From the NCBI RefSeq assembly GCF_019168305.1, contig NZ_JAHTBI010000004.1, forward strand, positions 1 to 64,000: a stretch of 64,000 nt of DNA, in the 5' to 3' direction. The notes beneath the pieces were generated by a model. That model was given only the letters and a program-made list of their open reading frames with translations. It was not told where the DNA came from and made no database searches. The position numbers were made by a program, and so were the translations under genes. Position 1 is the stretch's first letter; each line of letters opens with the position of its first letter. This document shows positions 11,739 through 26,571 of this stretch, piece after piece. This DNA comes from Pseudomonas aegrilactucae (GTDB lineage: Bacteria > Pseudomonadota > Gammaproteobacteria > Pseudomonadales > Pseudomonadaceae).

Positions 11739-12383
11739 ATGGTTGCAACAAGCCTTCCAGCCAAGATCAAGAACATCGACAAGTTGCTTGCCCACTGCCA
11801 ACGCCGGCGCTTCGCCGCCAAGAGCAACATCATCTGCGCCGGTGACCGGGCCGATACCCTGTCGTTCATCATCAAGGGCTCGGTAACCATTCTGATCGAG
11901 GACGAAGAGGGGCGCGAGATGATCATCGCCTACCTCAACAGCGGCGATTTCTTCGGCGAGCTGGGCTTGTTCGAGCCCTCGGGCAACGAGCAGCAACGCA
12001 GTGCCTGGGTGCGCGCCAAGACCGAGTGTGAGGTGGCGGAGATCAGCTACGAAAAATTCCGCGAACTGGCCCGCCAGGACCCGGACATTCTGTATGCCCT
12101 GGGCAGCCAGATGGCCCAGCGCCTGCGCAACACCACACAGAAGGTCGGTGACCTGGCCTTCTTCGACGTGACCGGTCGCGTGGCCCGTTGCCTGCTGGAG
12201 CTGTGCAAGCAACCCGACGCCATGACCCATCCCGACGGCATGCAGATCAAGATCACCCGCCAGGAAATCGGCCGTATCGTCGGCTGCTCGCGGGAGATGG
12301 TCGGCCGCGTCCTCAAAGACCTTGAAGAGCGCAGCCTGGTACACGTCAAAGGCAAGACCATGGTGGTCTTCGGCACCCGCTAG
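11739..12383 (+). CDS. crp: cAMP receptor protein (Crp/Vfr)
   Basis: Global cAMP-responsive regulator of 214 residues. An N-terminal cyclic-nucleotide-binding beta-roll ([10 protein letters not shown], then [16 protein letters not shown]) is followed by a dimer helix and a C-terminal helix-turn-helix ([20 protein letters not shown]). It is the P. putida Crp/P. aeruginosa Vfr orthologue by sequence. Its stop codon overlaps the stop of the convergent lipoate ligase-like gene. Confidence 0.96.
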
Positions 12384-13085
12384 TCGCGGGCAATGCCCTC
12401 GATCACCTTGGCATACGCCTGACCCAGACGCTCCATCACGGGCGCCTGGGGGCACCACTTCGTGCAACGCGATATGGCTGTCGGCCAGGCAACGCTGCTC
12501 CAGCGCACAGCATTCGTTGAACCGATTGACCGCAGCCACCATCGACTCACGCTCGTTGTGCAGCAACAGCGCACCATGCACCAGCACCACCGGGCGCTTG
12601 CCACCCAGGCCCTGGCGCCAGCGCTGGGCCGTGCCCACCAGCTTGCGACCATTGAGGTTGACGTTGTAGCGCCCATCACAGAACGCCCCTTCGATCTCCC
12701 CCACCGACGCCAGCCCGCCCCACTCGCGCAGCACCTGGCACAGCGGCAGGCAAAGGCGCTCGTACGCGGCCTCGATACGCCCATGGTCGCCTTCGCTGCG
12801 CGGTGCCACATACACCAGTGCAATATTGATCGTCGCACTCGACTGCGGCACCGGTTCACCGCCGGTCTCGCGCAACAGCACCGGCCAGCCGGTAGCAGCC
12901 AGTTCATCACAGGCCGCGGCAAAACCTTCGAGCCGGCTCATGCGCCGAGGCATCACCAGCGCCCGATCGGTGGGGCGCCAGAACAACAGGCCGTGGTCTT
13001 GCTCACCCTTGCATACCGCCGCCAACAAGTCCTGCTCGGCCTGCAACCCCGCCTCTACCGTTACCGCCACCGCTTGCTCAGTCAT
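12380..13085 (-). pseudogene. Lipoate-protein ligase A-like protein, frameshifted near its C-terminus
   Basis: BPL/LplA/LipB superfamily protein. RETGGEPVPQSSATINIAL and the later NVNLNGRKLVGTAQRW correspond to the lipoyl-AMP binding and catalytic-lysine motifs. As written, a G5 run on the + strand (12448-12452; CCCCC in the gene) shifts the frame after HEVV-P. The frame then stays open to 11733, antisense through crp. Removing one base gives a natural end ([18 protein letters not shown]) at 12380, overlapping the crp stop, for about 234 residues. The start ATG at 13085 fits the family. The shift removes only about the last 22 residues and is most likely a sequence error. Confidence 0.8.
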
Positions 13086-13105
13086 CGCACCCACCTTGTC
13101 GATAC

Positions 13106-13128
13106 AAAAAAGCCGGCAACGCCGGCTT
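13106..13128 (-). terminator. Terminator of the trpGDC genes
   Basis: Downstream of trpC on the minus strand: an 8-bp stem AAGCCGGC/GCCGGCTT (13110-13117 with 13121-13128) followed by a run of six T (complement of A-run 13106-13111). It has the classic Rho-independent form. Confidence 0.9.
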
Positions 13129-13137
13129 CAGTGTGGA

Positions 13138-13974
13138 TCAGTCCAGGCCTTGCGCCGGGTTGTGCACCACACGCTCCGGGAAGAACAGGCGCTGCAGTTC
13201 CAGCCCCGGATGCTCGGCACGCATGAACGCCTCGCCTACCAGGAACGAGTACACCTCGTTGATTTCCATCAACTCGACATCCGCGCGATTGAGGATGCCG
13301 CTCTCGGTAATTGCCAGGCGCTCACGGGGAATGCGCGGCAACAGGTCGAGCGTAGTCTCCAGGCTCACCTCGAAGGTGTGCAGGTTGCGGTTGTTGACGC
13401 CCACCAGCGGTGTATCGAGGGTTTTCAGCGCGCGCTCCAGCTCGTCGCCATCGTGCACTTCAACCAGCACATCCAGGCCGACGCTCTTCGCGGTGGCCGC
13501 CAACTCCGCCATCTTCACATCGTCGAGTGCCGAAACGATCAACAACACACAGTCGGCACCCAGCGCGCGGGCTTCGACGATCTGGTACGGGTCGATCATG
13601 AAGTCCTTGCGGATCACCGGCAGCTTGCACGCGGCGCGTGCCTGCTGCAGATAGGCGTCGGCGCCCTGGAAGTAATCGACATCGGTGAGCACCGACAGGC
13701 ACGTCGCCCCGCCCTTCTCGTAGCTGACGGCGATATCGGCCGGGACGAAGTCTTCGCGAATCACGCCCTTGCTCGGCGACGCCTTCTTGATCTCGGCAAT
13801 CACTGCCGGCTGCTTGCGCCTGGCCTGCTCGATCAACGCATTGGCGAACCCGCGTGGAGCATCCGCCGCTGCCGCCAGACGCTCAAGCTCGGCCAGGCTG
13901 ACCCGTGCACTACGCTCGGCAACTTCCTGAACCTTGCGTGCCAGAATGTTCTCAAGAACCGTCGGTACACTCAT
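13138..13974 (-). CDS. trpC: Indole-3-glycerol phosphate synthase
   Basis: Fourth step of tryptophan synthesis: ring closure of CdRP to indole-3-glycerol phosphate. The 278-residue TIM barrel has [12 protein letters not shown] with the catalytic lysine, IRKDFMID and VGVNNRNL. It is monofunctional, without a fused TrpF. Its ATG overlaps the trpD stop by 4 bp, indicating coupled translation. It ends before a clear terminator. Confidence 0.98.
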
Positions 13975-15020
13975 CCTTCATTCTCCTGCTTGAAGACCGC
14001 GGTGAACGCACCCAGCTCTTCGAGTTTTTCACGGGCAAGGCCGGTGTGCAGCGCATCGTGGGCCAGCTCCACACCTTGCTTGAGGGTCATGGCGTGGTCG
14101 GCGGCATAGAGTGCGGCGCCGGCGTTGAGCACGATCATTTCCGCCGCTTTCTGGCCATTCTCGGTCTTGCGCCGGCCCAGTGCATCACGAATCAGTTCCA
14201 GCGAAGCGGCCGGGCTGTCCACCGCCAGGCCGTGCAGGCTCTGGCTCTTCATGCCCAGGTCTTCGGGCTCGACCCAATACTCGGTGATCTCGCCCTTTTT
14301 CAGCTCGGCAACGAAGGTCGGCGCAGCCAGGCTGAACTCGTCCAGGCCGTCCTTGGAGTGCACCACCAGTACATGCTTGCTGCCCAGGCGCTGCAGCACT
14401 TCAGCCAGTGGCCGGCACAGCGCCTTGTTGAACACACCCACCACCTGGTGCTTGACCCCGGCCGGATTCGTAAGCGGGCCGAGCATGTTGAACAGCGTGC
14501 GCAGGCCCAGGTCGCGACGCGGGCCGGCGGCATGCTTCATGGCGCTGTGGTGGGTCTGGGCGAACATGAAGCCGATGCCCACCGAATCGATGCAACGCCC
14601 CACCTGCACCGGCGTCAGGTTCAGGTAGATACCGGCCGCCTCGAGCAGGTCGGCACTACCGCTCTTGCCCGACACCGCACGGTTGCCGTGCTTGGCCACG
14701 GTGCAGCCTGCGGCCGCGACCACGAACGACGACGCCGTGGACACGTTGAAGATATTGGCACCATCACCGCCGGTACCGACCACATCGACCACACCGTCGA
14801 GGGTGTTGAGCTCGACCTTGTCGGCCAGCTCGCGCATCACCGATACCGCGCCGACGATCTCGTCGATGCTCTCGCTCTTCATGCGCATGCCCATCATGAA
14901 GGCACCGATCTGGGCCTCGGTGCATTGACCGGTCATGATCTGGCGCATCACATCGCGCATTTCCTCGGTGCTCAGGTCCAGGTGGTCAACGACCCGGCTC
15001 AGCGCGCTCTTGATATCCAT
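13971..15020 (-). CDS. trpD: Anthranilate phosphoribosyltransferase
   Basis: Transfers phosphoribose from PRPP to anthranilate. The 349-residue protein has the [20 protein letters not shown]-binding loop and [18 protein letters not shown]. It lies 9 bp after trpG and overlaps trpC by 4 bp. It is not fused to TrpG, as is usual for pseudomonads. Confidence 0.98.
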
Positions 15021-15029
15021 ATTCGATCC

Positions 15030-15623
15030 TTAGCGGCGGCCGCCGGTCTGTCTGAGGAAGTTGGCGAACAGCTCGTGGCCCTGCTCGGTCAGAATCGATT
15101 CGGGGTGGAACTGCACCCCCTCGATGTTCAGCGTGGTGTGGCGCAGGCCCATGATCTCGTCGATCGAGCCATCTTCCAGGGCAGTCCAGGCAGTCAGTTC
15201 CAGGCACTCGGGCAGGGTTTCGCGCTTGACCACCAGCGAATGGTAGCGGGTCACGGTCAGCGGATTGTTCAAGCCTTCGAACACGCCCTGGTTTTTATGC
15301 AGCACCGGGCTGGTCTTGCCGTGCATCACCTGGCGCGCGCGCACCACGTCACCGCCAAAGGCCTGGCCGATGGACTGGTGGCCCAGGCATACGCCCAGGA
15401 TCGGCAGCTTGCCGGCAAAATGGCGGATGGCCTCCAGCGACACGCCGGCTTCGGTCGGGGTGCAAGGGCCAGGCGACACGACAATGCGCTCGGGCTGCAG
15501 GGCTTCGATCTGGGCGATGGTCAATTCGTCATTGCGAATGACCTTGACCTCTGCACCCAGCTCGCCGAAGTACTGCACGACGTTGTAGGTGAAGGAGTCA
15601 TAGTTGTCGATCATCAGTAACAT
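15030..15623 (-). CDS. trpG: Anthranilate synthase glutamine amidotransferase subunit
   Basis: Supplies ammonia from glutamine to TrpE. The class I amidotransferase triad is intact: C79 in GVCLGHQ and H173/E175 in QFHPES. The protein has 197 residues. The ATG at 15623 is preceded by AGAGG at about 9 bases; an in-frame TTG 9 bp earlier is not needed. A 62-bp gap to trpE holds two small stem-loops (15666-15680 and GAGTC/GACTC just before the ribosome site) but no T-run. Confidence 0.97.
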
Positions 15624-15685
15624 CTGGGTCAACCTCTTGAGTCTGCCGACTCTGAATTCTGTGTTGCGCCGCAGCGGCGCCCTTC

Positions 15686-17167
15686 TCAGCTGAGCGACGT
15701 CTGTTCAGCCAAAGCTACCGCGCGGAACATCGCCCGACGCTTGTTGATGGTCTCTTCCCACTCCAGCGCCGGCACCGAGTCGGCGACGATGCCGCCACCG
15801 GCCTGCACATGCAGTTCGCCGTCCTTGATCACTGCGGTGCGTATCGCGATGGCGGTGTCCATGTTGCCATTCCAGGCCAGGTAGCCCACCGCGCCGCCGT
15901 ACACACCACGCTTGACCGGCTCCAGCTCGTCGATGATTTCCATCGCGCGGATCTTCGGTGCGCCCGACAGCGTGCCGGCCGGCAGGATGGCGCGCAGCGC
16001 GTCCATGGCACTCAGGCCACTCTTGAGCTGGCCGGTGACGTTGGACACGATGTGCATCACGTTGGAGTAACGCTCGATGACCATCTTCTCGGTGACCTTC
16101 ACCGAGCCGGTCTCGGACACCCGGCCGGTGTCGTTGCGCCCCAGGTCGATGAGCATCAGGTGCTCGGCGATTTCCTTGTCATCCGACAGCAGGTCCTCTT
16201 CCAGGGCGCGATCGGCCTCTTCGGTGGCACCGCGAGGACGGGTACCGGCGATGGGGCGTACCGTCACCAGGTTGTCCTCGACCCGCACCAGTACTTCCGG
16301 CGAGCTGCCCACCACGTGAAAGTCGCCAAAGTTGAAGAAGTACATGTACGGCGTCGGGTTGAAGCAACGCAGGGCGCGGTACAGATCGATGGGCGCCGCC
16401 TTGAAGTCGATCGACATGCGCTGCGACGGCACGACCTGCATGCAGTCGCCAGCCAGGATATATTCCTTGACCGTGTCGACGGCACGCTCGTAGTCGGCCT
16501 GGGTGAAGCTGGAGCGAAATTCCGGCTCGGCGGCCTGCGGGCCACCCAGGGCCAGGCCGCGACGCGGGGCGATCGGCTGGCGCAATTGTTCGAGCAGCGC
16601 TTCAAGACGCGCCAGGCCGTTCTCGTAGGCGTTGTCCTGCGCAGGGTCGGCGAGCACGATGGCGTGCATCTTGCCCGCCAGGTTGTCGAACACCACGACC
16701 GCATCGGAGACCATCAGCAGGATATCCGGCACACCCAGCGGGTCCGGGTTCGGGCACTTGCCCAGGCGCTTCTCGACATAGCGCACGCAGTCATAGCCGA
16801 AGTACCCCACCAGGCCGCCATTGAAACGCGGCAGGCCAGTGATGGTCGGTACGTTGTAGCGCTCCTTGAAGGCCTCGACAAAGGCCAGCGGATCGTCCAC
16901 CTCGTGCTGTTCGATCAGGTCACCGTCGTGGGTGATGCGCACCTGATGGTCATGCACACGCAGCACGGTGCGGCACGGCAGGCCGATGATCGAGTAACGG
17001 CCCCATTTTTCGCCGCCCTGCACCGATTCGAGCAGGTAGGAATTGGGCTGGTCAGCCAGTTTCAGGTAGATCGACAGCGGCGTGTCGAAATCGGCCAGGG
17101 TTTCGCAGGCCAGGGGAATGCGGTTGTAGCCGGCAGCAGCCAGGCGCAGGAATTCTTCGCGGGTCAT
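15686..17167 (-). CDS. trpE: Anthranilate synthase component I
   Basis: Converts chorismate to anthranilate with TrpG. The 493-residue protein has the chorismate-binding region with [26 protein letters not shown] and [16 protein letters not shown]. The N-terminal LLES ([13 protein letters not shown]) matches the tryptophan feedback site. The ATG at 17167 begins conserved sequence. The gene lies 70 bp downstream of gph, whose Trp-rich tail may act as a leader (see 17231-17282). Confidence 0.98.
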
Positions 17168-17230
17168 GATAGCCTCGTGGCAATGGGGCAACAGGTCGTA
17201 CGGGCAAACGTGCCGGATCAGGCCGGCCAG

Positions 17231-17282
17231 AAAAAAGTCAGGCGCGCCAACGCCAACGGGCCAGGGCCTTGATGACTTTCAT
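17231..17282 (-). promoter_or_regulatory. Candidate trpE leader/attenuator overlapping the gph 3' end
   Basis: The last 14 codons of gph, starting at an internal ATG (17280-17282), read [14 protein letters not shown] and include two Trp codons two codons apart, with a third Trp just before the ATG. They overlap a stem-loop (GTTGGCG at 17251-17257 pairing with CGCC-TGAC at 17237-17244, one bulge) followed directly by six T (17231-17236). This is 64 bp before the trpE start. Attenuation of the trp genes has been reported for P. putida; that this element is the attenuator is my inference. Confidence 0.45.
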
Positions 17283-18053
17283 CCAGAGTTTGCCGGGTGC
17301 CACCACGATGGAATCTCTATCAGGGGGGGATTGATCGTCCGACATTAGCTCAGTGGCCGAATCTAAGCAACCAGGCAGCAGTGCGCGCAGGTCATCGATC
17401 ACCAGCGCAGGCGACTCTTCGCTGATCGGGCGACCATGGTTGTAGCCGTAACTGAGCGCCACGCACTGCACGCCGGCGGCCTTGGCAGCGAGCACATCAC
17501 TGCGCGAATCGCCCACGAACAGTGCCTGCTGCGCCGGCACGTTGGCCATTTGCATGACAAACAGCAGCGCGGCAGGGTCGGGCTTTTTCTGCGGCAGGGT
17601 ATCGCCGCCGATGATCCAGCGGAAATACCGGCCGATTTTCATCTGGTCCAGCAGCGGCGCGACAAAACGCTCCGGCTTGTTGGTGATCAGGGCCATTTCC
17701 ACGCCCTGCTTGTGCAGCCATTTGAGCGTGTCGCGCACGCCCGGGTACACCACCGTCAGCTCATGACCGTCGGCGTAGGCCTGCATGAACAGTTCGAGGC
17801 CGCGCGCGGCCTCGTCGTCGTCCACCTCGGCATGCTCGATGCTGCCGGCCAGGGCGCGGCGCACCAGCACCGGCGCACCGTTGCCGACCCACTCGCGCAC
17901 AGCGGCAAGGCCGGCCGGCGGGCGGCCCATTTCGAGCAGCATGTGGTCCACGGCAGCCGCAAGGTCCGGCACCGAGTCGATCAGGGTGCCATCCAGATCG
18001 AACATCACCAGCTTGGGCAGGCTCCCGGGGAACAGCTGCTCGAAGCCGCTCAT
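17238..18053 (-). CDS. gph: Phosphoglycolate phosphatase
   Basis: HAD hydrolase that removes 2-phosphoglycolate. The 271-residue protein has D19-x-D21-GT ([10 protein letters not shown]), TNKPERF and [14 protein letters not shown]. It carries about 45 extra C-terminal residues beyond the catalytic core, ending in a basic, Trp-rich tail ([17 protein letters not shown]). A seven-C run in this tail (G7 on the + strand near 17323-17330) does not break the frame. It overlaps rpe by 4 bp upstream and leads into trpE. Confidence 0.95.
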
Positions 18054-18724
18054 GGGCGGGCCAGAGCCAATTCGGCGTGCATCCTGGCAATCACTTCTTT
18101 GTAATCCGGGGCATTGAAGATCGCCGAGCCGGCCACGAAGGTATCGGCACCGGCCGCCGCAATCTCGCGGATGTTGTTGACGTTGACGCCGCCGTCGATT
18201 TCCAGGCGGATATCACGCCCGCTGGCATCGATCAGCGCGCGTGCTTCGCGCAGCTTGTCGAGGGTGGCGGGGATGAACTTCTGGCCACCAAAGCCCGGGT
18301 TGACGCTCATGAGCAGGATCATGTCGACCTTGTCCATCACGTACTTGAGCGCGTCCAGCGAGGCGGCCGGGTTGAACACCAGCCCGGCCTTGCAGCCGCC
18401 GTCACGGATCAGTTGCAGCGAGCGGTCGACGTGCAGGGTGGCATCGGGGTGGAAGGTGATGTAGGTGGCGCCGGCCTCGATGAAGTCGCCAATGATGCGG
18501 TCAACCGGGGTCACCATCAGGTGGGCGTCGATCGGCGCGGTCACGCCGTACTTGCGCAAGGCGCTGCAGACCATCGGGCCGATGGTCAGGTTGGGTACGT
18601 AGTGGTTGTCCATCACGTCGAAGTGGACGATATCGGCGCCGGCTTCGAGCACCTTGTCGACTTCCTCGCCCAGGCGGGCGAAGTCGGCAGAAAGAATGGA
18701 GGGAGCAATAGCGTAGGGCTGCAT
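18050..18724 (-). CDS. rpe: Ribulose-phosphate 3-epimerase
   Basis: Interconverts ribulose-5-P and xylulose-5-P in the pentose phosphate pathway. The 224-residue TIM barrel has [30 protein letters not shown] and [13 protein letters not shown] with the metal and catalytic Asp/His residues. The ATG at 18724 starts the conserved sequence; the in-frame extension upstream is not conserved. The ATGA overlap with gph indicates an rpe-gph-trpE transcription unit. Confidence 0.97.
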
Positions 18725-18824
18725 GGCGCACCTGTTGGGCAGAATCACGGTGGCGCGCATTGTACCTCAGGCAACCCCTCAGGGGCTGACTGGCATCAAG
18801 CCGACGGTGAGTCGGCAGTGTGGC

Positions 18825-18898
18825 CTTCGCTGGCAAGCCAGCTCCCACAGGTTTTGCGAACGCCGCAGAACCGTGTGGGAGCTGGCTTGCCAGCGAAG
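18825..18898. repeat. REP-type inverted pair (downstream of the ABC operon)
   Basis: Two inverted arms (18825-18850 and 18874-18898) share 25 bases of near-perfect complementarity; the right arm begins TGTGGGAGCTGGCTTGCC. The loop is about 23 bases. The pair lies between rpe and the end of the transporter operon. Its right arm is identical to one at 23483-23507. Confidence 0.85.
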
Positions 18899-18910
18899 AG
18901 GTCGTCAGCC

Positions 18911-19738
18911 TCAACCCGGCTGCTGGGTACGCATCTTCTCGCTGCGCCCACGCAGCCATTCCAGCGTCAACAGCAGCACCACCGAGAACGCGATCAGCAA
19001 GGTCGCCGCCGCCGCGATGGTCGGGCTCAGGTTCTCGCGAATCCCGCTGAACATCTGGCGTGGCAGCGTGGCCTGCTCAGGCCCGGCCAGGAACAGCGTC
19101 ACCACCACCTCATCGAACGAGGTCGCGAACGCGAACAGCGCCCCCGAGATCACCCCCGGCGCGATCAACGGCAGGGTCACCCGGCGGAACGCCGTCACCG
19201 GCGAAGCGCCAAGGCTTGCCGCCGCGCGCACCAGATTGTGGTTGAAGCCCTGCAAGGTCGCCGACACCGTGATGATCACGAACGGCACACCCAGCACCGC
19301 ATGCACCAGGATCAACGAGGTAAAGCTGTTGCCCAGGCCCAGCGGAGCAAAGAACAGGTAGCTGGCCACACCGATGATCACCACCGGCACCACCATGGGC
19401 GAAATCACCAGCGCCATCACCAGTGACTTGCCGGGGAAGTCGCCACGGGTCAGGCCGATCGAGGCCAGGGTGCCGAACACCATCGCCAGCAGGGTCGCCG
19501 CCGGCGCCACGATGATGCTGTTCTTCAACGCACGCATCCACTCGGCCGAGCCGAAGAAGTCCTGGTACCACTGCAGCGAGAAGCCCTGCAACGGGTACAC
19601 CAGGAAGCTGCCCGAGTTGAACGACAGCGGGATGATCACCAGCACCGGCAACACCAGGAACAACAGCACCAGCCCGCAAAGGATGCGCAAGCTGTAGTAC
19701 CAGACCCGCTCGACGGGCGACATGTAAGGGCTCAGCAT
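18911..19738 (-). CDS. ABC transporter permease, spermidine/putrescine type (PotC/PotI-like)
   Basis: Inner-membrane permease of 275 residues with six predicted helices. Its EAA-type loop, RAAASLGASPVTAFRRVTLPLIAPG, contacts the ATPase. Sequence class and operon order put it in the polyamine-type (family 1 binding protein) transporters, although the true substrate is not shown. It is the last gene of the four-gene operon, 11 bp after the other permease. Confidence 0.92.
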   Translation of the reverse strand: MLSPYMSPVERVWYYSLRILCGLVLLFLVLPVLVIIPLSFNSGSFLVYPLQGFSLQWYQDFFGSAEWMRALKNSIIVAPAATLLAMVFGTLASIGLTRGDFPGKSLVMALVISPMVVPVVIIGVASYLFFAPLGLGNSFTSLILVHAVLGVPFVIITVSATLQGFNHNLVRAAASLGASPVTAFRRVTLPLIAPGVISGALFAFATSFDEVVVTLFLAGPEQATLPRQMFSGIRENLSPTIAAAATLLIAFSVVLLLTLEWLRGRSEKMRTQQPG

Positions 19739-19749
19739 GACAACGCTCC

Positions 19750-20997
19750 TCAGCTCAGACGCAGGCGGCTTGCGCCCACCAGCCAGCTATAGATCAGGTA
19801 CAGCAGCACGGTGGCCAGCAACAGCAACCCGCCCAACGCGGTGGCCATGCCCCAGTTGATGCTGGTGTTGGTGTAGAAGGCGACAAAGTAGCTGACCATC
19901 TGGTCGTTCGGGCTGCCCAGCAGCGCCGGGGTGATGTAGTAGCCGATCGCCAGGATGAACACCAGCAGGCAACCCGCGCCCACACCGGCATAGGTCTGCG
20001 GCAGGTACACACGCCAGAAGCTGGCGAACGGGTGGCAACCCAGGGAAATCGCTGCACGCATGTAGGTCGGGGAAATCCCTTTCATCACGCTGTAGATCGG
20101 CAGGATCATGAACGGCAGCAGGATGTGCACCATCGAGATGTACACGCCGGTACGGTTGAATACCAGCTCCAGCGGCTTGTCGATCAGCCCCACGGCCATC
20201 AGCGCACTGTTGATCAGCCCGCCTGACTGCAGCAGCACGATCCACGCCGCCACCCGCACCAGGATCGACGTCCAGAACGGCAGCAGTACCAGGATCATCA
20301 GCAGGTTGCTCTGCCGGGTCGGCAGGTTGGCCAGCAGGTAGGCCAGCGGATACGCCAGGGCCAGGCAGATCACGGTGATCACCAGCCCCATCCACAGGGT
20401 GCGGGCGAAGATATCGAGGTAGATCGCCTGGTCCGGGGTGGTGGGCGCCAGTTCGCCCAGGTCATCGATGCGGTGGTCCACCGAAGCCAGCAGGTAGAAC
20501 GGGGTCACGCTGCTGGTGTTGCGGCGGATCGCCTGCCAGTACGCAGGGTCGCCCCAGCGCTCATCGAGTTCCTGCAGTGCTTCTTTATAGGAGGCCGGCT
20601 CGGTCTTGAACGGCAAGGCCCGGGCCGTCTTGGCGATCAGGCTGCGGTAGCCGGCCAGCTCCATGTTCAGGCGCTTGGACAGGTCGCCCAGGGTCTGGTT
20701 CTTGCGCGATTCGGCAAGGTCCTCGCTGAGCGCCTTGTACACCGGCTCGCCCGGGAGGCTCTTGCCATCCCACTCAGCCACGGCCACCACGGTGCGCGGC
20801 AAGCCGCCGACCACCTCGGGGTTACCCACGCTCTTGTACAGCAGCGCAGCAATCGGCACGAGGAAAACCAGCAACAGAAACAGCGCCAGTGGCGCGATCA
20901 GCGCCTTCGCCTTCCAGCGGTTTACCCGCTCGGCGCGCGCCAGACGCTTCTTGAGGTTGGAACCTGCGCCTTCGTTCAGGGGCACTGCGATGGCCAT
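19750..20997 (-). CDS. ABC transporter permease, spermidine/putrescine type (PotB/PotH-like), with long periplasmic insertion
   Basis: The 415-residue permease is about 100 residues longer than a typical PotB. Helix 1 (about residues 33-55) is followed by roughly 135 soluble residues rich in charged helices (EWDGKSLPGEPVYKALSED and on) before helix 2 near residue 197. The remaining helices and the EAA loop (RAAISLGCHPFASFWRVYLP) are standard. The insertion faces the periplasm by the usual topology and may contact the binding protein. It lies 65 bp after the binding-protein gene. Confidence 0.92.
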   Translation of the reverse strand: MAIAVPLNEGAGSNLKKRLARAERVNRWKAKALIAPLALFLLLVFLVPIAALLYKSVGNPEVVGGLPRTVVAVAEWDGKSLPGEPVYKALSEDLAESRKNQTLGDLSKRLNMELAGYRSLIAKTARALPFKTEPASYKEALQELDERWGDPAYWQAIRRNTSSVTPFYLLASVDHRIDDLGELAPTTPDQAIYLDIFARTLWMGLVITVICLALAYPLAYLLANLPTRQSNLLMILVLLPFWTSILVRVAAWIVLLQSGGLINSALMAVGLIDKPLELVFNRTGVYISMVHILLPFMILPIYSVMKGISPTYMRAAISLGCHPFASFWRVYLPQTYAGVGAGCLLVFILAIGYYITPALLGSPNDQMVSYFVAFYTNTSINWGMATALGGLLLLATVLLYLIYSWLVGASRLRLS

Positions 20998-21062
20998 AAC
21001 GAACTCCGAAAATCTTGGGAACAGGAGGCGTCAGCACAATGCTGACGCCCCGTCGGCACGGC

Positions 21063-22100
21063 TTACTTGGCCGCCGCCCAGGCGTTGAAGCGTTGTTCCA
21101 GCTGCTCGCTGTTGTCCGCCCAGAACGCCACGTCGATCTGCACCTGGTTGGCGATGTTTTCCGGGGTGGTCGGCATGTCCTTCTTGATCTCGTCGGACAG
21201 CAGCGCGACCGCCTTGGAATTGGCCGGACCGTAGGCGATGTTCTGCGAATAGACCTTCTGCTGCTCGGGCTGGACCGAGTAGGCGATGAATTTCTTCGCG
21301 TCTTCGACGTTCTTCGCGCCTTTTGGAATGGCCCAGGCATCGAAGTCGTAGATGCCGCCGTTCCACACCACCTTCAGGTTGCTTTCCTTCTGCACGGCGG
21401 CGATGCGCCCGTTGTAGGCCGAGCTCATCACCACGTCCCCCGAAGCCAGGTACTGCGGCGGCTGTGCACCGGCTTCCCACCACTGAATGCTTGGCTTGAG
21501 CTGATCGAGCTTCTTGAAGGCGCGGTCCTGGCCTTCCTTGTCACCCAGCACCTTGTACACATCCTTGGGCGCGACACCGTCGGCCATCAGGGCGAACTCG
21601 AGGGTGTACTTGGCGCCCTTGCGCAGGCCGCGCTTGCCCGGGAAGGTCTTGGTATCCCAGAAGTCTGCCCAACTGGTCGGCGCGGTCTTGAGCTTGTCGG
21701 CGTTGTAGGCCATTACCGTCGACCACACGAAGAAGCCCACACCACACGGCTGGATCGCACCGGGCACGTAGTCGGCTTCGTCACCGAACAGCGCCGGATC
21801 GATCTGTTCGAACATGCCTTCGTCACAGCCTCGGGCCAGTTCCGGCGACTCCACTTCCACCAGGTTCCAGCTCACGCTCTTGGTGTCGACCATGGCTTTG
21901 ACCTTGGCCATCTCGCCGTTGTACTCGCCTGCCACGATCTTGCCGTTACCCGCCTTTTCCCACGGCTCGTAGAACGCCTTGACCTGGGCTGCCTTGTTCG
22001 CGCCACCAAAAGAGATCACGGTAAGATCGGCCGCCGCCATCGTCTGGGTTGCAGCGAACAGGCCCAGGGCCAGGGCGGTCAGCTTCAAGTGTCTGTGCAT
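21063..22100 (-). CDS. Extracellular solute-binding protein, polyamine-type ABC transporter
   Basis: Periplasmic binding protein of 345 residues. A signal peptide (MHRHLKLTALALGLFAATQTMAA, cleavage after AMAA-like site near 23) is followed by a family-1 (PotD-like) fold: DLTVISFGGANKAAQ, WSTVMAYNADKL, FPGKRGLR. The ATG at 22100 follows GGAGAG. The ligand could be a polyamine or another small cation; the binding pocket cannot be assigned by eye. It sits between the ATPase and the permeases. Confidence 0.92.
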   Translation of the reverse strand: MHRHLKLTALALGLFAATQTMAAADLTVISFGGANKAAQVKAFYEPWEKAGNGKIVAGEYNGEMAKVKAMVDTKSVSWNLVEVESPELARGCDEGMFEQIDPALFGDEADYVPGAIQPCGVGFFVWSTVMAYNADKLKTAPTSWADFWDTKTFPGKRGLRKGAKYTLEFALMADGVAPKDVYKVLGDKEGQDRAFKKLDQLKPSIQWWEAGAQPPQYLASGDVVMSSAYNGRIAAVQKESNLKVVWNGGIYDFDAWAIPKGAKNVEDAKKFIAYSVQPEQQKVYSQNIAYGPANSKAVALLSDEIKKDMPTTPENIANQVQIDVAFWADNSEQLEQRFNAWAAAK

Positions 22101-22141
22101 TATTATTCTCTCCACGTTGCAGGGGGTTGGTGAAGCAAACC

Positions 22142-23266
22142 TCAGTGGGCTTCCAGAATAGGATCGAGCGCACGACCGTGCTCGACCTCCCAGCCCAGCG
22201 GTACCACGTCGCCCACGGCCAGCGCCGGGTCGAGTTCGGCGATCGGCTGCTTCACGAAGAAATCGGCCTTGCCGCACACTTCCAGACGCACCCGCACGTG
22301 GTCGCCCAGATAGATGAATTCAGCCACACGCCCGGAGAAACGGTTGACGCAGCTTTCGCTGTGGCCATTCAGGCGTACACGCTCCGGGCGGATCGACAGG
22401 GTCACCGGCTCGCCGGGCTGGCCGACGTTTACTGCAAGCGCCTCGACCTGCTCGCCACGGGCCAGGGCCACCAGGCAGCGGTCGCCGGTCTGGCTGAGCA
22501 GGCGGCCATTGATGCGGTTGTTCTCGCCGATGAAGTTGGCGACGAAGGTGTTCTTCGGCTCTTCGTAGAGGGTACGCGGGTCGGCGATCTGCTGGATCTC
22601 GCCCTGGTGGAACACCGCGACGCGGTCGGACATGGTCAGCGCCTCGCCCTGGTCGTGGGTCACGTACACCACGGTCACGCCCAGACGCTGGTGCAGGTGC
22701 TTGATCTCCATCTGCATGTGCTCACGCAGTTGCTTGTCGAGTGCGCCCAGCGGTTCGTCCATCAGTACCAGTTGCGGCTCGAACACCAGCGCGCGGGCCA
22801 GTGCCACACGCTGCTGCTGGCCGCCGGAAAGCTGGCCGGGGTAACGCTGGGCGAAGGCATCGAGCTGGACCATGCTGAGCACACGCTTGACCCGCTCGCT
22901 GATGTCGGTCTTGCTCAGGTTGCGCACGCTCAGGGGGAAGGCCAGGTTCTCGGCGACGGTCATGTGCGGGAACAGTGCGTAGTTCTGGAACACCATGCCG
23001 ATGTCGCGCTTGTGCGGTGGTACGTTGTTGATCGAACGACCGTCCAGCAGGATCTCTCCGGCAGTGGGGGTTTCGAAACCGGCCAGCATCATCAGGCTGG
23101 TGGTCTTGCCCGAGCCCGAGGGGCCGAGCAGGGTCAGGAATTCGCCTTTGCGAATATCCAGGTTCAGGTCTTTGACGATCAGCGACTCGCCGTCGTAGCT
23201 CTTCTGCACACCACGGAAGCTGACCAGCACTTCGCCGGTTGCAGCGCTCGAATTCACCTCACTCAT
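22142..23266 (-). CDS. ABC transporter ATP-binding protein, polyamine type (PotA-like)
   Basis: The 374-residue ATPase has Walker [10 protein letters not shown] (residues 48-56), the Q-loop [12 protein letters not shown], signature LSGGQQQR, Walker B LVLMDEP and the H-switch YVTHD. A C-terminal TOBE domain (SIRPERVRL and after) is characteristic of PotA/MalK-like importers. It is the first gene of the operon and is followed after 41 bp by the binding protein. Confidence 0.95.
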
Positions 23267-23434
23267 ACCCGCACCTTTTTGTTGGATGACTGCTGTGACC
23301 CAAGACTAGAGAAGGTGCACGGTGGCGCAAATCGGGGGTGCTGAGAGAATCGCATCAGCCGGGTGGAACGTTGAGGGTAGGGATTGCCCTACAAGGATGG
23401 CGTTTTCAGACAAGGTGATGACTGTGCTGACGCC

Positions 23435-23507
23435 GTCGCCGGCAAGCCAGCGCCCACAGATCTGGCGTACACCGGCGATCCCTGTGGGAGCTGGCTTGCC
23501 AGCGAAG
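23435..23507. repeat. REP-type inverted pair (upstream of the ABC operon)
   Basis: The left arm (23435-23459, GTCGCCGGCAAGCCAGC...) and right arm (23483-23507) are inverted REP units. The right arm is base-for-base the same 25-mer as 18874-18898. It lies between the transporter ATPase gene start and the response regulator gene end. The remaining part of 23267-23536 has no gene and no convincing promoter. Confidence 0.85.
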
Positions 23508-23536
23508 GCATCAACACGGTGTCGCTTCTGGAACAC

Positions 23537-24166
23537 TCACACCAGCTTGTGCTCCATCGCATACTTCACCAGCTCCGCCAGCGAATTCACGTTGAGCTTC
23601 TGCATCAGGCGCGCCTTGTGCGTACTGATGGTCTTGTTGCTCAGCGCCAGCTGCTGGGCGATGTCGTTGACGTTGGCGCCCTGGGCCAGGCGCTCGAACA
23701 CCGAGAACTCGCGTTCCGACAACAGCGAATGCAGCGGCCGAGAATCAGTCAGCCCCACCTCGAACACCATGCGGTCCGCCAGGTCCGGGTCGATATAGCG
23801 CCCACCACCGGCCACCCGTCGAATCGCGGTCAGCAGCAGCGCCGGGTCGCTGTCCTTGGTGGCATACCCCGCCGCGCCGATCTTCAACGCCCGCGCCGCC
23901 ATCTGCGCCTCGTCATGCATGGACAGCACCAGGATCGCCGGCGGCGCGCTCAAGGCACGAATCCGTGGGATGGCCTCCAGCCCGTTCACCCCCGGCATCG
24001 AGATATCCAGCAGCACCACCTCGCACTCGGTATGGCGCAAGGCCTCGAGCAACTGCTCACCATTACCGGCCTCGCCCACTACCTGCATGTCCTTGGCCAG
24101 GCCGATCAACTGCTTGATGCCTTCACGCACGATGGTGTGGTCTTCGGCAACCAATACTCGAATCAC
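23537..24166 (-). CDS. Two-component response regulator, NarL/FixJ (LuxR) family
   Basis: The 209-residue regulator has a receiver domain with acidic pocket E8/D9, phospho-acceptor D54 (VLLDISMPG) and KDS. A C-terminal LuxR-type HTH follows (LSEREFSVFERLAQGANVNDIAQQLALSNKTISTHKARLMQKL). The start is a GTG with AGGAG 7 bases upstream. That ribosome site lies within the kinase gene's end, 2 bp before, so the pair is translationally coupled. Its targets are unknown; the adjacent ABC operon is a reasonable guess. Confidence 0.93.
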   Translation of the reverse strand: MIRVLVAEDHTIVREGIKQLIGLAKDMQVVGEAGNGEQLLEALRHTECEVVLLDISMPGVNGLEAIPRIRALSAPPAILVLSMHDEAQMAARALKIGAAGYATKDSDPALLLTAIRRVAGGGRYIDPDLADRMVFEVGLTDSRPLHSLLSEREFSVFERLAQGANVNDIAQQLALSNKTISTHKARLMQKLNVNSLAELVKYAMEHKLV

Positions 24167-24168
24167 TG

Positions 24169-26571
24169 TCAGCTCCTGTCGTTGTTCAGAGGGACGCGTA
24201 CGCTCAACGTGGTGCCCTCGCCCGGCTCGCTCTCAAGGTGCATGGTGCCCCCCAGCATCAGCACCCGCTCGCGCATGCCCACCAGGCCGAACGAGGTGGG
24301 GCGCTGGTCACTGTGCACGAAACCCACGCCATCGTCGCTGATGATCAGGCACAGCATCGCGTCGTCCAGGCTCAGGCTGATCTCCACCGTATGTGCCTGA
24401 GCGTGGCGCATGACGTTGGTCAGCGCCTCCTGCAGGATGCGGAACAGGCTGGTGGCCTTGGCGTCGCTCAAGGGCGGCAGGTTGTCCGGCACCTGCACCA
24501 GGCACGGGATCTGCGTGCGCGCCTCGAAGCGCCGTGCCTGCCACTCGATGGCCGAGGCAATGCCGGCATCCAGGATGGGCGGGCGCAGCGCAGTGGCCAC
24601 ATCGCGCACCAGCTGGAACAGCTGCGCGATCAGGCGCTTCATGCTGCCCAGGCGCTCGTTCAGGCCCGGGTCCAGGCTGGCATAGGCCAGTTCGCACATC
24701 GAGGTTTCCAGCTTGAGCACGGTGAGCATCTGCCCCAGCTCGTCATGCACCTCGCGGGCGATGCGCGCCTTCTCCTCCTCACGCACGCTTTCCAGGTGCG
24801 CCGACAGCTCGCGCAACTGCTCCTGGGAGCGCGCCAGTTCGAGTTCGGCACGCTTGCTCTGGCTGATGTCCCACACCACGCCATCCCACACCACCCGGCC
24901 GTCCCCCAGGCTGCGGGTACTGGCCTTGATGTCGGCCCAGCGCTGTTCGCCCTGGCGGGTGAGCATGCGGCCCTGCCACGACCAGTCCTGATCGGTGGCC
25001 AGCGCCTGATCCTGCACGCGGTGGTAATCGGCGCGGTCCTCGCCATGCACCAGGCTGCGCAAGCCCATCTGCGGGTTCTGCAGCTCGGCCGGCGAGTAGC
25101 CCACCAGCGCCTCGCTGCCTTCACTGATATAGGGGAACTCGAGCTCGCCCTCCGCCGGGTTGCGCTCCAGGCGAAACACCAGCCCCGGCACGTTGCCGGC
25201 AATACCCTTCAGGCGCGCCTCGCTCTCGCGCAGCGCTGCCAGCGCGCGGCGCCGCTCGGTCACATCGTTGAGGAACACCACCAGGTACTCGGCATCGCGA
25301 AAACGCAGGAAGCTCAGTGACACATCCACCGGCAAGAAGGTGCCATCGGCGCGCAGGCACTGTGTCTCGAACCGCTGTGCGGCTTCATCGCTGGCCCGCG
25401 CACGTTTCCACAGGTCCAGCCAGCGGTCCATGTGCAGGTTGGGCTCGATGGTAATCAGCGGCCGGTCGATCAACGCGCCGGCGGTGTAGCCGAGCATGCT
25501 TTCGGCGGCGCGGTTGGCGTAGCGCACGTGGCTGTCCCAATGCACCCAGAGGATGCCCACGGTGCTCTGGTCAAGGGAGAACTGGCTCAGGCGCAGGGCC
25601 TCTTCGCGCGCCAGGCGCTTGGCGATGTTCTCCCGCGCGGCCAGCAGGTTCAGTTCCAGCTGCTGTTGCTGGCGACGCTGCCAGATCACAATGGCGATAC
25701 AGCTCAACAGCAGGGCTGCAAACAACAGCGCCAGGTTCTGCCAGAAGCCTGGCGACTCGCTCAGGCGCGGGTACTTGGGTTGCAGCCAGCGGTTGTGCAG
25801 TTGTTCAAGGTCCTTGGCCGGGATCGCCTGCAGGCCGTGCTCGATGATCTCGGCCAACTGTGGCCAGTCGCGCCGCGAACCCACCCGCAACAGTTGCGGC
25901 AGGCCGATGTCACCGACCACCACCAGGTCGCTGAATTCGTTCTCGCGCGACAGCCGGCTCAGTTGCGCCTCGTCCACCACCGCATAGCGCACCTGTTCGC
26001 TGAGCAGCAGTTGCAGGGCCTGGCGCTCCATGGGCACGCCCTGCAGATTCAGGTTGGAGTAGGTCGCACGCAGGTAGTCAGCCACTGCGCTGGGCATGCG
26101 TACGGCCACCCGCTCGTTGCTGGCGAGCTTTTCCAGGTCGACCGCCATCGCCCCATTGCGCGGCCCGACCACCAACTGCGGCACACGCATGTAGGGGTCG
26201 CTGAACAGCCAGCGGCGCAGCCCGGCCGGGGTCTGGGTGAGCCCCGGTGCCAGGTCGATCTCGCCCCCGGCCAGCGCATGTTCCAGCGCCGCCTGGTCGG
26301 TGAAATTGCGCCAGGTCAGGTCCAACCCCAGTGCCCTGCCCAACCAGTTCATCAATTCGACGTTGACCCCGGACAACTGCTGCAGGCGTCGGTCGAATTG
26401 CGCAAAAGGCGCCTGCAGTACCAGCCCCACACGCAGGCTGCGGTGTTGATCCAGCCATTGCTGCTGGGCAGGGTCCAGCGGCACCGCGACGGGCGCTGGC
26501 AGCGTGGTGGCAGCCACCATCAAGGGCCAGCCGAAACAGCCGATAAGCAACAGGCAGCGCAAACGCATCAT
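24169..26571 (-). CDS. Sensor histidine kinase with periplasmic solute-binding domain and two PAS domains
   Basis: About 800 residues. A signal sequence is followed by an SBP_bac_3-type domain (about 47-263), one transmembrane helix (about 278-298) and two PAS domains (about 325-440 and 445-570). A HisKA_3 dimerisation domain has its phospho-histidine at about 609 (AREVHDELGQ), and a HATPase follows (DDGVGF, FGLVGMRERV). The layout resembles BvgS/EvgS-type ligand sensing, but the kinase end is NarX/UhpB-like, matching the LuxR-family partner. Two adjacent ATG codons (26571, 26568) are possible starts. The periplasmic domain suggests amino acid or related ligands; none is shown. Confidence 0.92.
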   Translation of the reverse strand: MMRLRCLLLIGCFGWPLMVAATTLPAPVAVPLDPAQQQWLDQHRSLRVGLVLQAPFAQFDRRLQQLSGVNVELMNWLGRALGLDLTWRNFTDQAALEHALAGGEIDLAPGLTQTPAGLRRWLFSDPYMRVPQLVVGPRNGAMAVDLEKLASNERVAVRMPSAVADYLRATYSNLNLQGVPMERQALQLLLSEQVRYAVVDEAQLSRLSRENEFSDLVVVGDIGLPQLLRVGSRRDWPQLAEIIEHGLQAIPAKDLEQLHNRWLQPKYPRLSESPGFWQNLALLFAALLLSCIAIVIWQRRQQQQLELNLLAARENIAKRLAREEALRLSQFSLDQSTVGILWVHWDSHVRYANRAAESMLGYTAGALIDRPLITIEPNLHMDRWLDLWKRARASDEAAQRFETQCLRADGTFLPVDVSLSFLRFRDAEYLVVFLNDVTERRRALAALRESEARLKGIAGNVPGLVFRLERNPAEGELEFPYISEGSEALVGYSPAELQNPQMGLRSLVHGEDRADYHRVQDQALATDQDWSWQGRMLTRQGEQRWADIKASTRSLGDGRVVWDGVVWDISQSKRAELELARSQEQLRELSAHLESVREEEKARIAREVHDELGQMLTVLKLETSMCELAYASLDPGLNERLGSMKRLIAQLFQLVRDVATALRPPILDAGIASAIEWQARRFEARTQIPCLVQVPDNLPPLSDAKATSLFRILQEALTNVMRHAQAHTVEISLSLDDAMLCLIISDDGVGFVHSDQRPTSFGLVGMRERVLMLGGTMHLESEPGEGTTLSVRVPLNNDRS

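Follow-up and report, generated by a model that had tools for sequence, protein, structure and literature searches.

In the trp operon of enteric bacteria, the first trp gene is preceded by a leader, trpL, a short open reading frame (ORF) that carries Trp codons close to its end. Another type of control is exemplified by ermC, a translational attenuator in which ribosomes on a leader ORF free the downstream ribosome-binding site. In pseudomonads, trpE and trpGDC of Pseudomonas putida are regulated by attenuation, according to the title of a report by Olekhnovich and Gussin (2001), and a supplementary figure legend describes a potential GTG-initiated upstream ORF (uORF) and premature 3' ends in the trpGDC leader of Pseudomonas aeruginosa (PMC8297930). 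Among the titles and beginnings of abstracts listed from the open-licence literature, we found no description of a Pseudomonas trpE leader or of its overlap with gph, and a trpE leader is not mentioned in the passages found in papers on RNA motifs and premature terminators. The trpE leader itself may already have been published.

We analyzed a window of 64,000 nucleotides from Pseudomonas aegrilactucae in which gph and trpE are neighbors; these genes, and the promoter, leader and RNA features described below, are on the minus strand. The gph ORF (17238..18053, 271 amino acids in the ORF list) ends with a stop codon that is read directly at 17240-17238. It is followed after 70 nucleotides by trpE (15686..17167), for which the ATG at 17167-17165 was chosen as the start. 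The trpE Shine-Dalgarno sequence GAGG (17173..17176) is likewise read directly and is conserved in alignment A1, which is a thinned set of 102 loci with leader-trpE distances below 100 nucleotides, locus L310 being omitted. A preliminary description, made from the letters alone, had pointed to closely spaced Trp codons at the end of gph, 70 nucleotides before trpE, and to the lack of a separate leader ORF in this gap. Both observations hold, the former by direct reading and the latter by the window's ORF list, which has no leader-type ORF between the two genes. A third Trp codon lies 10 codons ahead of the first of the two near the gph end. The nearest named records to the window are Pseudomonas brassicae and P. 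palmensis.

The best explanation of this arrangement, which we regard as reasonably probable, is that the Trp codons belong to a leader peptide of trpE with its own promoter and GTG start codon; that gph, having no stop codon of its own at the junction, therefore continues through both of these as far as the leader stop codon; and, as a more tentative step, that ribosomes on the leader may free the trpE ribosome-binding site.

Related loci were collected at three taxonomic levels. The N-terminal 184 amino acids of the window's trpE product had a match in 148 of 149 genomes of the genus, and trpE loci were fetched from 122 of these, with named records added. The family search covered 59 genomes (58 matched and fetched), and the order search covered 115 (94 matched, 26 loci examined). 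A leader end was defined as an ORF finishing in [RH]WxW(x0-3)stop within 350 nucleotides of trpE. In the family sample of 259 fetched trpE loci, 252 have such an end, in or out of the gph frame. The leader is an in-frame tail of gph in 192 loci, is separate from gph in 53 and has no gph match in 7; the proposal that a Trp-codon leader doubles as the in-frame tail of Gph is thus borne out for the 192. Locus counts are not independent, as some genomes appear both as a named record and under a handle of our own, and there are 213 distinct post-leader sequences. At the order level, the strict leader end was found in 7 of 26 trpE loci, and inspection by eye revealed Trp-rich ORFs at further ones. 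As judged from these sequences, the occurrence of the leader end before trpE is far beyond chance.

The seven family trpE loci without an [RH]WxW leader end are L280, L289, L292, L294, L295, L300 and L301. In one genome (G051), flagged as 9% contaminated, two trpE matches lie 1.3 kb apart, both with a gph-type leader (L112 and L114), which may reflect a duplication or faulty assembly. When the pattern of the Trp-codon stretch was sought throughout the window's own genome, 6 matches were found, one of which is the trpE leader.

The leader ORF itself appears to be under coding constraint. In fused loci, whose leader also forms part of Gph, omega is 0.125 in the leader frame; the other two frames give 1.76 and 1.18. 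Counted from the GTG, leader-frame omega is 0.167 for codons 1-9 and 0.083 for codons 10-22, compared with 0.8-2.2 in the other frames. This analysis used the 159 distinct loci, out of the 192 fused, in which the length from the -10 element to the leader stop is 113; the window (length 110) is excluded. The sequences thus contain the short ORF with cognate codons, upstream of a biosynthetic gene, that is sought in a putative attenuator, and this ORF very probably functions as a leader.

In the window, the leader ORF (17238..17306) starts with GTG at 17306 and has 22 codons plus the stop, with Trp at codons 8, 18 and 20. A Shine-Dalgarno-like AGAGA (17314..17318) lies 7 nucleotides ahead of the GTG. 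This GTG is invariant in all 102 loci of A1, and its distance to the leader end is 69 nucleotides in most loci, with 72 or 84 also seen. The purine block about 7 nucleotides upstream is present in both fused and separate loci, and its sites (-12 to -8) have 1-7 changes each in fused loci. The ATG of the MKVIK segment was ruled out as the start for two reasons: 11 of 252 loci have no ATG 10-19 codons ahead of the leader end, and a 15-nucleotide insert that some clades carry between this ATG and the first Trp codon leaves the frame intact (by eye). The leader had originally been taken to be just the last 14 residues of Gph; its identity as the Gph tail stands, and its extent does not, given a predicted GTG start 69 nucleotides before the leader end.

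The region upstream of the leader resembles a sigma70-type promoter. The predicted -35 element TTGCTT (17365..17370) and -10 element TAATGT (17342..17347) are separated by a 17-nucleotide spacer and follow the pattern TTGN3-N17-TAN3T. This pattern, which was written after inspecting the sequences, is found at the promoter place in 244 of 252 leader loci (192 of 192 fused, 52 of 60 others), as compared with 7 of 2266 background windows in gph. In the -35 element, TTGC is unchanged throughout the 159 fused loci and the last two bases have 14 and 3 changes, while sites of the -10 element have had 0-4 inferred changes each; for comparison, linker sites have up to 26 changes and third positions of the gph core average 24.7. 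TTGA, whose TGA would be a stop, occurs in the -35 element of 0 of 192 fused loci. For the 52 non-fused loci that have this pattern, the gph stop lies within the -35 element in 9, within the -10 element in 14, upstream in 22 and behind the -10 element in 2, with 5 unknown. The leader thus most likely starts at the GTG at 17306, with its own Shine-Dalgarno sequence and promoter inside gph. From the predicted promoter, we place the inferred trpE transcription start near 17335; a start downstream of 17231, which would have spoken against a leader within gph, is not predicted. With its own predicted promoter, Shine-Dalgarno sequence and GTG, the leader need not be reached by ribosomes coming from gph, contrary to what had first been supposed.

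The C-terminal extension of Gph (residues 227-271, 17241..17375) would then consist of the trpE promoter, a linker and the leader, all read in frame. NCBIfam model NF009698 (phosphoglycolate phosphatase) matches Gph over residues 1-271 of 271 with 535 bits, above its curated cut-off of 466, which places the protein in this family. We observe that this model, with 272 positions, counts the promoter-and-leader tail (17241-17375) as enzyme. The remaining phosphoglycolate phosphatase models shown stop at or before residue 228, and all Pfam, NCBIfam and PDB matches other than NF009698 stop at or before residue 231. In the AlphaFold model, the confident fold ceases near residue 229, pLDDT is below 50 at residues 230-260 and 262-271, and a low-confidence helix is drawn at 255-270. 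By these models, Gph residues 227-271 are outside the enzyme fold and predicted to be disordered.

The fusion was placed on a tree of the Gph core built from 109 of 257 rows, thinned and with L310 omitted, by a quick method that left long outgroup branches and open forks and calls for caution in reading the result. On this tree, fused loci are in one clade (SH-aLRT 95) that is surrounded by separate loci, and the separate leader looks like the ancestral state. The clade contains 45 fused loci, 3 separate ones (L148 and L006/L010) and L295, which has no leader. The fusion label requires at least four changes, the simplest history being one gain and three losses, and the fusion is best read from the tree as having a single origin and few losses. 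At L310, a frameshift breaks the fusion; this single-contig genome (G034) also has a short trpE frame (379 amino acids), and the frameshift is probably a sequencing error.

What maintains the fusion can be read in several ways. One possibility, which we place slightly below an even chance, is a frozen accident, in which the gph stop was lost without benefit and the leader alone matters. Omega in the 159 fused loci is 0.132 in the gph core, 1.11 in the linker after the -10 element and 0.81 in the promoter segment, and therefore the amino acids of the tail look unconstrained; the predicted disorder of the tail and the presence of L148, L006/L010 and L295 without the fusion inside the fused clade also favor this reading. 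However, between the -35 element and the GTG, 2 nonsense changes are inferred where 12.2 are expected (Poisson 4e-4), although these counts rest on parsimony states, for which the gph core, with 8 compared with 161.9 expected, gives a measure of noise. The depletion is partly a matter of composition, since the two other frames summed have 29 nonsense changes compared with 43.3 expected. Length changes between the -10 element and the GTG also argue against an accident, as 7 of 10 events are in frame (p 0.02), or 7 of 9 when the suspect L310 is dropped (p 0.008). In non-fused loci, these spacings show no frame preference (15, 21 and 16), and 32 of the 52 non-fused loci with the promoter have a leader-frame stop between the -35 element and the leader end. 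Fused loci moreover span four genus codes, with few losses. Taken together, the data suggest, but do not prove, that the open gph-leader frame is kept by selection. A specific and rather speculative version, to which we give limited credence, is that a coding end was built from the neighbor's promoter and leader and that its frame is selected because ribosomes finishing gph drive the trpE switch; the same Trp codons would then act in both the short transcript and the gph read-through message, with synthesis of Gph becoming sensitive to Trp as well. That the Arg-Trp tail is instead a working part of Gph, for example in membrane or RNA contact, and is near trpE by chance, is very improbable. An alignment of 25 Gph proteins shows little or no variation at the tail end, and the helix modeled with low confidence at 255-270 would suit such a role, but the peptide is separate from gph in the 53 family loci noted above and precedes trpG in 15 of 30, and the confident part of the modeled fold stops short of it.

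Downstream of the leader, a conserved RNA structure is a hairpin, termed hairpin C (GCCGG/CCGGC, 17212..17227), which starts 10 nucleotides past the stop codon. A strong hairpin C is present in 92% of the 213 distinct sequences, as compared with 12.6% of shuffles, and is formed by 39 different arm pairs. In 194 of 213 sequences, it begins 9-10 nucleotides past the leader stop, a spacing approximately equal to the toeprint distance, so that a ribosome occupying the stop codon would reach about as far as the hairpin.

Two long-range helices also probably form, according to comparison of the sequences. In P1, GGCAAAC at leader codons 5-7 (17288..17294) would pair with GUUUGCC behind hairpin C (17203..17209). 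In P0, UCGUGGUGG at the leader start (17300..17308) would pair with UUGCCACGA (17175..17183), which overlaps the trpE ribosome-binding site. Compensatory versions of P1 are CACACAC:GUGUGUG in 4 sequences (for example, L199 and L203) and GCACAG:CUGUGC in another 4 (for example, L278, L279 and L283); P1 is missing in some loci, such as L120, L126, L165 and L193. Most pairs of P0 are fixed, and deep clades have the versions GATCAGCC:GGCTGATC (5 sequences, for example, L287, L297 and L299), GGATCAAAC:GTTTGATTC (2 sequences, for example, L290) and GATCAGAC:GTTTGATC (L296). Pairing of each P1 strand with its own partner scores 15.5, as compared with 14.7 for swapped partners, and a score of at least 14 is reached by 87% of own, 70% of swapped and 37% of shuffled pairs; for P0, the scores are 17.9 and 17.3, and the gain is modest for both helices.

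Covariation in the combined P1 and P0 structure was assessed on 102 loci, and the counts are favored by the fact that the structure was drawn from the very sequences (A1) on which it was then counted. In total, 72.5% of cells pair, although the helix parts 23-28/267-273 and 41-43/214-216 do so in just 49% and 59%. There are 88 cells with a change on each side versus 38.7 in shuffles (0 of 500 as high), and covariation is 0.150 versus 0.113 (0 of 500), with slid versions of the structure giving 0.020-0.081. The two measures least misled by relatedness do not rise above their shuffled values in the 102 loci: 12 pairs changed on both sides versus 10.7 (133 of 500 as high) and 42 pair types versus 39.4 (78 of 500 as high). 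Taken together, the covariation evidence for P1 and P0 is mixed. Within the leader, Trp codons 18 and 20 are conserved.

Folding predictions were also made. The RNA of the window folds like its shuffles (z -0.81). When the whole leader is covered in the model, openness of the trpE Shine-Dalgarno sequence rises from 0.03 to 0.29 in the window and falls in other loci, so that covering the leader brings no consistent change over the 25 loci modeled (26 were chosen, and one was set aside for its length). A search of positions 12000-26000 against Rfam gave no match at the gathering level, and 16950-17500 gave one match (E 9.5), far below the gathering score.

These structures bear on how the leader would control trpE. 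We tentatively propose, as a possibility that is still short of probable, that a queue of ribosomes on the leader controls trpE by freeing its ribosome-binding site. In cells short of charged tRNA-Trp, ribosomes would halt at Trp codons 18 and 20, and others would line up behind them; the 5' half of the leader would then be unable to form P1 with the segment past hairpin C, or P0 with the trpE ribosome-binding site, and trpE would be expressed. When Trp is plentiful, ribosomes would depart and the panhandle would close. In fused species, we hypothesize that ribosomes arriving from gph would cross the same Trp codons, which would put gph-to-trpE read-through messages under the same control. A queue must be assumed, because one modeled ribosome on the Trp codons leaves access to the trpE Shine-Dalgarno sequence unchanged in nearly all of the 25 loci. 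Classical transcription attenuation, with hairpin C as the terminator and leader RNA forming an antiterminator when a ribosome stalls at the Trp codons, is likewise conceivable, with a probability of perhaps a third. In its favor are the attenuation of P. putida trpE and trpGDC named in the title of Olekhnovich and Gussin (2001) and the premature 3' ends by the potential GTG uORF in P. aeruginosa (PMC8297930), which, as far as the figure legend goes, fit transcription termination better than the freeing of a ribosome-binding site. By eye, pairing is also possible between the Trp-codon stretch and the CCGGC arm that is common in hairpin C. However, the arm variants GCGGC and AAAGCC no longer match that stretch (by eye), and a stalled ribosome masking it would favor the hairpin, which is the wrong sign for a terminator. 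Moreover, the terminator with a U-tract that is sought in a transcriptional attenuator was not found: there is no conserved U-tract behind hairpin C, and the T run is at most 3 in the following 10 nucleotides in 210 of 213 sequences. Freeing of the ribosome-binding site is therefore favored over a terminator. A different terminator had been suggested at first, namely a stem-loop followed by six T (the T tract at 17231..17236). This suggestion was abandoned, and it is exceedingly unlikely that the stem-loop is simply a terminator that ends gph transcripts and overlaps the last gph codons. A stem-loop plus T6 does exist in the window, but this single site in the scan compares with an average of 0.9 in shuffles of the region, the predicted fold of the 50-nucleotide stretch is no stronger than that of shuffles (z 0.04), and the T tract is not conserved, as just 18 of 252 loci have at least six T in an 8-nucleotide window just past the leader stop.

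A stand-alone leader with the same end, such as VTSSSTLLMRVVKAHARWRWRA, is also found before trpG, in the 15 of 30 trpG loci mentioned above. The loci with an RWRWRA-type leader are L247, L252-L256, L259-L262, L264, L265, L271, L273 and L275. These leaders have GTG at the matching place, and several have a TACTGT-like -10 element (by eye). Among 29 tabulated genomes, the trpG leader is absent in all 13 in which trpG is directly behind trpE, the window included, and a trpG leader inside the window was accordingly rejected as a candidate. When trpG lies farther off on the same contig, the leader is present in 12 of 13 genomes, the exception being G172. When the two genes are on different contigs, it is present in 2 of 3, and in the third (G149) the sequence begins at the contig edge. 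From these sequences, trpG located away from trpE usually appears to have its own RWRWRA leader. A candidate helix with the trpG Shine-Dalgarno sequence is weak (own mean 13.95 versus 13.02 shuffled, 15 loci).

Elsewhere in the window, a GGCAAGCCAGCTCCCAC-type repeat forms inverted pairs at 18832-18891 and 23441-23500; 5 matches with at most 3 mismatches were found, as compared with 1.6 expected. We presume that these are similar to the REP elements of Pseudomonas.

The proposed arrangement would explain the 45-residue tail that NF009698 treats as Gph, and would illustrate the birth of a protein tail out of regulatory DNA once a stop codon is lost. A fusion that seems to have arisen once, with relatives whose separate leaders can serve as controls, also offers a means of asking whether ribosomes from an upstream gene can work a leader peptide. 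In addition, the arrangement raises the possibility of a trp leader that acts through a ribosome-binding site rather than a terminator.

Among known systems, the P. putida trpE and trpGDC genes named in the 2001 title are the same genes in a congener. The P. aeruginosa trpGDC leader (PMC8297930) resembles the trpG leaders described here in its matching GTG; it differs in that its gene is trpG, not trpE, and the figure legend mentions no gph fusion. Like trpL of enteric bacteria, the Pseudomonas leader is a short ORF that precedes the first trp gene and has Trp codons towards its end. Unlike trpL, it begins with GTG, alternates Trp with Arg (RWRW), has no conserved terminator U-tract among the sequences compared and sits, together with its promoter, inside the ORF of another gene. 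In the model that we favor, it would be similar to ermC, in that leader-bound ribosomes would free a downstream ribosome-binding site; unlike ermC, the signal would be Trp codons rather than an antibiotic, and the helices involved would be long-range.
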